This document shows positions 25,747-29,155 of a stretch of DNA of 33,844 nt, one piece after another. The stretch comes from Schleiferiaceae bacterium (GTDB taxonomy: Bacteria; Bacteroidota; Bacteroidia; Flavobacteriales; Schleiferiaceae), in contig JAKMGS010000003.1 of NCBI GenBank assembly GCA_022424815.1, forward strand, positions 1 to 33,844. Direction: 5' to 3'. The notes under the pieces are model-generated. The model was not told the DNA's origin. It ran no database searches and worked only from the letters and a program-made list of their open reading frames with translations. Positions within the stretch are counted from its first letter, which is position 1. Each line of letters begins with the position of its first letter. Made by a program: the position numbers and the translations under genes.

Positions 25747-25823
25747 CGAACAACCATGTTCGTTGTATAAAGCCAATAAACTTAATTAAGAAACCCGGGA
25801 AGAGCATCTTCTCGGGTTTTTTG
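25747..25823 (+). ncRNA. Candidate small RNA 3' region (5' end undefined) ending at an intrinsic terminator
   Basis: Hairpin CGAACA-acca-TGTTCG (25747-25762) followed by terminator 25791-25823; no upstream plus-strand ORF. Confidence 0.35.
25791..25823 (+). terminator. Strong intrinsic terminator with no upstream coding ORF on its strand
   Basis: AACCCGGGAAGA-GCA-TCTTCTCGGGTT then TTTT: 12 bp stem, 3 nt loop, U-tract on plus strand. Confidence 0.85.
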
Positions 25824-25886: not shown

Positions 25887-26061
25887 CACCCCCCTAAAAT
25901 TCCAGGGGTGGTGATCTATAAATTCAATAATTTGAATTACACACCCCTTAAATTTTAGGGTAATATTTTATTAATACACTAATAATTCAACCTTGCACCT
26001 ATTTTTTTAGGGGGTGTTATGCCAAAAACATTAGTTTTGTCGCAAACAACCCCCTGGAATT
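25887..26061 (+). promoter_or_regulatory. Array of C/G-rich palindromic elements (putative operators) upstream of glnK
   Basis: 25887 CACCCCCCTAAAATTCCAGGGGTG; 25942 CACCCCTTAAATTTTAGGGT; 25996 CACCTATTTTTTTAGGGGGTG; 26049 ACCCCCTGGAATT (half-site). Left edges 55, 54 and 53 bp apart. Confidence 0.6.
26032..26039 (+). promoter_or_regulatory. Bacteroidota-type -7 element (TAnnTTTG)
   Basis: TAGTTTTG matches TAnnTTTG, 23 nt before the glnK ATG and between palindromes 3 and 4. Confidence 0.55.
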
Positions 26062-29081: not shown

Positions 29082-29155
29082 TGGAGAAGATCGGGCTCGA
29101 ACCGACGACCTCTTGACTGCCAGTCAAGCGCTCTAGCCAACTGAGCTACATCCCC
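29082..29155 (-). tRNA. tRNA-Ala(GGC), CCA not encoded
   Basis: Minus: GGGGATG TA GCTC..GAGC G CTTGA CTGGCAG TCAAG AGGTC GTCGG TTCGAGC CCGAT CTTCTCC A. Anticodon GGC; G3:U70 alanine identity pair; A73. Confidence 0.93.

Follow-up and report, generated by a model that had tools for sequence, protein, structure and literature searches.

Organization of the glnK-amtB upstream region

The window analysed here, a stretch of 33,844 nt from the genome assembly of a marine Schleiferiaceae bacterium (1.84 Mb, 82% complete, and close to 'Cryomorphaceae bacterium UBA10897'), carries genes for a P-II nitrogen regulatory protein and an ammonium transporter, preceded by the sequence elements listed in Table 1. 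The amtB product gave its best E value with the marine subtype model TIGR03644, yet fell below the cut-off of that model.

Direct examination of the window letters confirmed the positions of the four strings and the TAnnTTTG box that an earlier note on this DNA had reported. That note had described four palindromes with left edges 55, 54 and 53 bp apart. We observed three palindromes, which share the common register CCCC-N10-GGGG with an A/T-rich N10 core and have centres 53 and 52 bp apart, together with one CCCCC half-site; the earlier figures were taken from the left edges of strings of unequal length, but the spacing of about five helical turns was borne out. The reported 11-nt reverse complementarity between elements 1 and 4 is likewise real. 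It is not a conserved feature, however, and is incidental, because the closest relatives keep element 4 while their element 1 has a different spacer.

Table 1. Features of the glnK-amtB region (positions are those of the window; distances in parentheses are from the putative transcription start)
Feature	Position	Strand	Remarks
Operator site 1	25887-25910	.	core CCCCTAAAATTCCAGGGG 25891-25908, centre 25899.5 (about -144)
Operator site 2	25942-25961	.	core 25944-25961, centre 25952.5 (about -91)
Operator site 3	25996-26016	.	core 25996-26013, centre 26004.5 (about -39)
-7 promoter element TAGTTTTG (TAnnTTTG)	26032-26039	+	conserved in the genus; TAnnTTTA in a few members
CCCCC left half-site	26050-26054	.	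abuts glnK start codon; near +53 register of site 3
glnK, P-II nitrogen regulatory protein, 112 aa	26062-26400	+	PF00543, E=1.1e-23
amtB, ammonium transporter, 416 aa	26411-27661	+	TIGR00836, above cut-off

We defined a site as at least 7 of the 8 C/G positions with at least 7 of 10 A/T in the spacer; a pattern that demanded exact ACCC starts proved too strict for the array. By this definition the 33.8-kb window contains exactly three sites, all upstream of glnK-amtB, and neither a set of three sites nor any pair 51-54 bp apart arose in 20,000 first-order Markov resamplings of the 400-bp intergenic region. With the A/T requirement dropped, the word pair showed no enrichment across the window (11 matches against 9.5 expected), and the A/T core therefore belongs to the site definition. 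Elsewhere in the window, an inverted repeat (AAGAAACCCGGGAAGA/TCTTCTCGGGTTTTTT, positions 25788-25822) forms a hairpin resembling an intrinsic terminator, placed between the array and the gene upstream of it, and a tRNA gene on the minus strand (29082-29155) is the sole Rfam hit.

The inverted repeats GGGGGTG...CAACCCCC around the start region (26009-26055) raise the question of whether the palindromes are RNA hairpins, in a leader or attenuator, rather than DNA sites. The conserved -7 box, however, comes after all three full sites; there was no Rfam match at gathering threshold, and the GGGGG/CCCCC pairing is lost in genus members with a CCCC-free leader. We consider an RNA function very unlikely.

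Conservation of the array at glnK

We compared 15 same-genus glnK loci from 14 genomes, each read in the correct orientation. The 53-bp array was present in 14 of them, with two or three scorable sites each, and the remaining locus had a single strict site. Over all glnK loci, neighbouring centres were 51-54 bp apart in 24 of 26 pairs, and 45 sites were found in 20 sequences as against 5.4 in resampled sequences; these related sequences are not independent, and such counts describe conservation rather than probabilities. A strict site occupied the site 2 position in all 15 loci. The position orthologous to site 1 was filled in most, often with a degenerate left arm, whereas the half-site at 26050-26054, which is 1-2 bp off the expected register, was kept in the 2 closest relatives (L008 and L009) and lost in several other members of the genus.

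Related palindromes at regular spacing might be functionless remnants of a recent tandem duplication or of a mobile element. But the linkers share no repeat with one another, as had been noted from the window itself, and they cannot be aligned across the genus although the words between them persist; moreover, orthologous arrays stand at the same genes in different families. Conservation of the words alone refutes the duplication model, to which we assign a negligible probability, and agrees with the earlier proposal of selection on the sites. That proposal also depended on the sites being conserved among relatives and being less frequent elsewhere, and on checking we found both.

Outside the genus, the array was found at glnK, or upstream of a porin-glnK-amt unit, in the cultured Flavobacteriaceae Salegentibacter, Christiangramia, Maribacter, Psychroserpens and Leeuwenhoekiella, and as a full site with a 53-bp half-site in Zunongwangia. 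Wenyingzhuangia and Confluentibacter carry several tandem glnK-amt copies (L355, L356 and L345).

Recurrence of the operator at glnN and further nitrogen genes

A search across the genus with a strict pattern, blind to gene function, had most of its hits at glnK. One further location with an A/T-rich core recurred, about 20-50 bp ahead of the gene for a 730-aa protein. This protein is a type III glutamine synthetase (GSIII, glnN; PF12437, E=2e-79), and the window's own genome has the operator at glnN too (G000:C17, L087). The glnN upstream regions of other genera and families of Flavobacteriales contain one to three sites each, and the glnN array occurs through most of the order. In the aggregate, 60 of 95 glnN upstream regions had a site, compared with 15.9 in resampled sequences, and 31 of 34 close site pairs were 52-54 bp apart. 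In one genome (G069), of which 1.2 of about 1.6 Mb was scanned, the sole phased array was the one at glnN.

Further targets were found in the form of a full site and a half-site. Christiangramia has such an array at glnN, Leeuwenhoekiella and Zunongwangia each have one between glnN and glnA, and Maribacter has one upstream of gltB; genome G096 (L173:2980) has a perfect site about 40 bp upstream of the alanine dehydrogenase gene ald, with a half-site 53 bp away. Among the 22 tabulated matches to this pattern with an A/T-rich core, 13 were at nitrogen genes, and the other 9 include coding and G/C-edged sequences. The sites at non-nitrogen positions (within tsaB and LacI coding sequence, and at rpsL and HPF) look like chance matches or are unproven.

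Thus one operator lies upstream of several nitrogen-assimilation transcription units (glnK, glnN, glnA/glnN and gltB), as in a nitrogen-assimilation regulon, and the link to nitrogen genes that had been proposed for the window holds well beyond it. On this comparative evidence, the array is very probably an operator of nitrogen-assimilation genes.

Other sequences also came to light in these searches. In Zunongwangia (L453:3289-3345), a pair of sites resembling the array precedes a ribosome hibernation factor-like gene, a possible further target. The sequence ACCCCAGTATTTACTGGGGT recurs in several places in genomes G003, G004, G011 and G012 of the genus, and probably represents another repeat or terminator family. 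Similar CCCCGTTT...AACGGGGCAAAGGTAATATTTA elements are present in two genera (G258:C24:87575 and G259:C12:193808), and their G/C edges mark them as unrelated to the array.

The array has limits. We found no strict phased array at the Bacteroidales glnK loci, nor in the glnN upstream regions that were read from other orders of the class, where there was one possible partial case (L209). Within the order, the array is missing at glnK of one family (f14) and at the glnK loci of Tenacibaculum, Polaribacter and Flavobacterium jejuense, so that nitrogen control in these last three must differ; most glnN regions of genus g22 also were without it. A genome of family f14 (G073, L191) has glnK-amtB followed by gltBD on the same strand, without array and without GSIII.

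Site anatomy and promoter register

When sequences were aligned on their best site, the words CCCC and GGGG reached four or more occurrences only at the anchor itself and at positions about 53 bp to either side. Partners at about 53 bp, taken together with five turns of 10.5 bp (52.5 bp), place all sites on one side of the helix, as the earlier note had suggested. Often the arm nearer the anchor is all that a partner retains, GGGG in upstream partners and CCCC in downstream ones, and a T-tract lies 29-33 bp after each site centre.

The TAnnTTTG box, which is of the sigma-A type, is conserved at both glnK and glnN. Because the corresponding box of Flavobacterium lies at -12 to -5 (PMC9723704), glnK transcription would start near 26044. 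The GGGGG arm of site 3 then sits in the -33 region, in agreement with the earlier placement of this element, and at every locus where both were found, 33.5-35.5 bp separate the centre of site 3 from the final G of the downstream -7 box. The arrangement corresponds to a tandem class III activator layout, with a proximal site at the -33/-35 region and an upstream site about five turns off (centres at about -39, -91 and -144).

At glnN, the nearest full site is 24.5, 33.5, 43.5-46.5, 54.5 or 64.5-66.5 bp from the -7 box, depending on lineage. Taken together, the distances (24.5, 34, 44, 54.5 and 65.5 bp) form steps of roughly 10 bp; a Rayleigh test gave p of about 9e-5 with genera as units but about 0.07 on distinct distances, so the stepping is suggestive.

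The promoters fall into two layouts. Where the operator lies upstream, a -33 TTG was seen in only 2 of 11 glnK promoters and 5 of 22 glnN promoters of other lineages. At glnN of the window's genus, the operator fills the promoter spacer and a -33 TTG is present at exactly 20 bp in 20 of 20 cases. The two layouts are most simply read as activation and repression, respectively. Half-sites overlapping the -7 or start region at other promoters, together with the genus glnN layout, also fit repression better than activation.

These features bear on the proposal of a pure repressor array, in which a dimeric repressor would bind cooperatively in nitrogen plenty, cover the -33 and -7 regions and leave under limitation, in the mode of AmtR or archaeal NrpR. 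Such a model provides one mechanism for all targets, and it accommodates both the operator within a complete promoter at genus glnN (TTG in 20 of 20, spacer 20) and the half-sites over the -7 or start region. It accounts poorly for the absence of the -33 box, expected to persist in a promoter that is only repressed, from glnK and most other promoters, and for a promoter register that shifts in roughly 10-bp steps. We regard pure repression as possible but doubtful.

Search for the regulator

As the earlier note had observed for the window, no regulator gene is adjacent to the array. No transcription-factor gene consistently adjoins glnK-amtB, glnN or gltB in the neighbourhoods examined; a BlaI/M56 pair close to glnN is confined to Christiangramia and Zunongwangia. 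Nor did co-occurrence with the operator make a convincing case for any of the CRP, AsnC, MerR or LysR families, although incomplete assemblies weaken every absence of a regulator.

A genus CRP/FNR-type protein (L235-L238) was considered in particular, acting through a CRP-like class II plus tandem class I architecture. A site centred near -39 and paired in tandem with another about 52 bp farther upstream does resemble tandem CRP promoters, and one CRP-type protein is conserved in the genus genomes that were checked. Yet there was no HTH_Crp_2 match in G069 or G048 (92-97% complete), both of which have glnN operators; the protein in G081 is of a different type, and close relatives occur in the array-negative genomes G061 and G084. 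A role for this protein is quite improbable.

An Lrp/AsnC protein is argued against by the lack of a match in the operator-bearing genomes G028, G041 and G069. A LysR protein was present in 11 of 11 operator-bearing genomes tested and missing from four array-free genomes, but the shared LysR carries an OxyR-like GHCxR...C cysteine motif and was rejected as the nitrogen regulator. Short MerR proteins were found in 19 of 19 genomes, with and without the array, and their presence is therefore uninformative. NtrC with sigma-54 was set aside on the conserved sigma-A box at glnK and glnN and on the absence, by eye, of a -24/-12 element. Genome G069 has genes of the TetR, AraC, ArsR, PadR, OmpR and XRE families and a sigma-54 activator, all of which are candidates; this approximate list of about a dozen regulators came from 1.2 of about 1.6 Mb, with consensus seeds.

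A model for regulation by the array

From the arrangement of sites, promoters and target genes we infer a protein, its cooperativity, its nitrogen response and the sign of regulation, as follows. A two-fold symmetric, dimeric regulator would read CCCC-N10-GGGG. Dimers bound to the same DNA face at intervals of five helical turns would probably aid each other's binding; the cooperative binding put forward in the earlier note thus seems a reasonable inference, but its suggestion of DNA looping was not upheld, as site-to-site or RNA-polymerase contacts account for the spacing equally well. At glnK-amtB, the proximal site would replace the -33 box, with the two other sites behind it, and activation when nitrogen is limiting is the likeliest mode: RNA polymerase would be recruited by the proximal dimer to a promoter with a -7 box and no -33 box, and the upstream dimers would add to this activation. 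At glnN of the genus, the same factor more likely blocks transcription, because the operator lies between an intact -33 TTG and the -7 box, and the factor would then be a dual regulator. We slightly favour activation at glnK-amtB on these sequence features, and judge the proposal as a whole (a dimeric nitrogen regulator, an operator array, activation at glnK-amtB and dual sign) to be rather probable.

A more far-reaching version, which we offer tentatively, is that a regulator of a family new to nitrogen control might hold or wrap promoter DNA in a rigid five-turn repeat, built of an A/T-rich palindrome, G/C-tract arms and one asymmetric T-tract per linker, and might constitute the main nitrogen control system of Flavobacteriales, with opposite signs according to array position.

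Published expression data touch on these genes. In Formosa B, a porin/P-II/ammonium transporter/glutamate synthase cluster was co-induced on glucose and laminarin, being detected only when one of these was added to peptone (PMC6246565); the cluster is laid out like the array-bearing one of Psychroserpens (L350), a likeness of gene layout. Ammonium supply has a strong effect on amtB, glnK, glnN and gltBD in Prevotella ruminicola, a species outside the order (PMC5552732). The available portions of these two papers name no regulator or operator for those genes.

Comparison with known systems

Several known regulators share features with the system described here. TnrA and GlnR of Bacillus, which belong to the MerR family, are nitrogen regulators of amtB-glnK and glutamine synthetase, and TnrA acts with opposite signs. 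The array has the same kinds of targets, but the TnrA/GlnR operator is TGTNAN7TNACA rather than CCCC-N10-GGGG, and the array sites lie upstream at several registers, unlike those of MerR proteins, with genus glnN as the exception. NtcA of cyanobacteria, a member of the CRP family, binds a palindrome near -41 to activate nitrogen genes, glnN among them. The proximal site of the array is similarly placed (near -39) and similarly found at glnN, whereas NtcA is a CRP-type protein that binds GTA-N8-TAC, usually at single sites. NrpR of methanogens and AmtR of Corynebacterium have palindromic operators at amt/gln genes, in tandem in some promoters; these operators resemble the array in all three respects and differ from it in sequence (GGAA-N6-TTCC for NrpR) and in spacing, and a further difference is that both proteins are pure repressors. 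NtrC with sigma-54 controls a nitrogen regulon from tandem dimer sites, as might the array, but the promoters here have the sigma-A type TAnnTTTG box.

Tandem CRP promoters such as deoP2 have palindromic activator sites about five turns apart, the proximal one near the -35 region. The array agrees with them in these features and differs in its half-site (CCCC-N10-GGGG), in having three or more sites, in its nitrogen targets and in involving no CytR; a CRP-type regulator, moreover, is not supported for it. Tandem CRP binding at E. coli deoP2 is cited in PMC3454398.

In the open-access literature we found no published description of the array, in keeping with the earlier note, and no described regulator or operator of Flavobacteriales nitrogen assimilation.

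In the sea and in freshwater, the Flavobacteriales count among the chief degraders of algal matter. A conserved, easily recognised operator at glnK-amtB, glnN, glnA and gltB would give a direct handle on their nitrogen control, and the array DNA could serve as bait for its protein, with Salegentibacter, Christiangramia, Zunongwangia, Maribacter and Leeuwenhoekiella as cultured carriers. The near-invariant 53-bp period, combined with the switch between upstream and in-promoter positions, would constitute a natural experiment on how helical phasing determines the sign of regulation. Judged from the genomes compared, we take the order-wide nitrogen operator and its rigid five-turn architecture to be real, and the array points to a widespread nitrogen control switch in Flavobacteriales.
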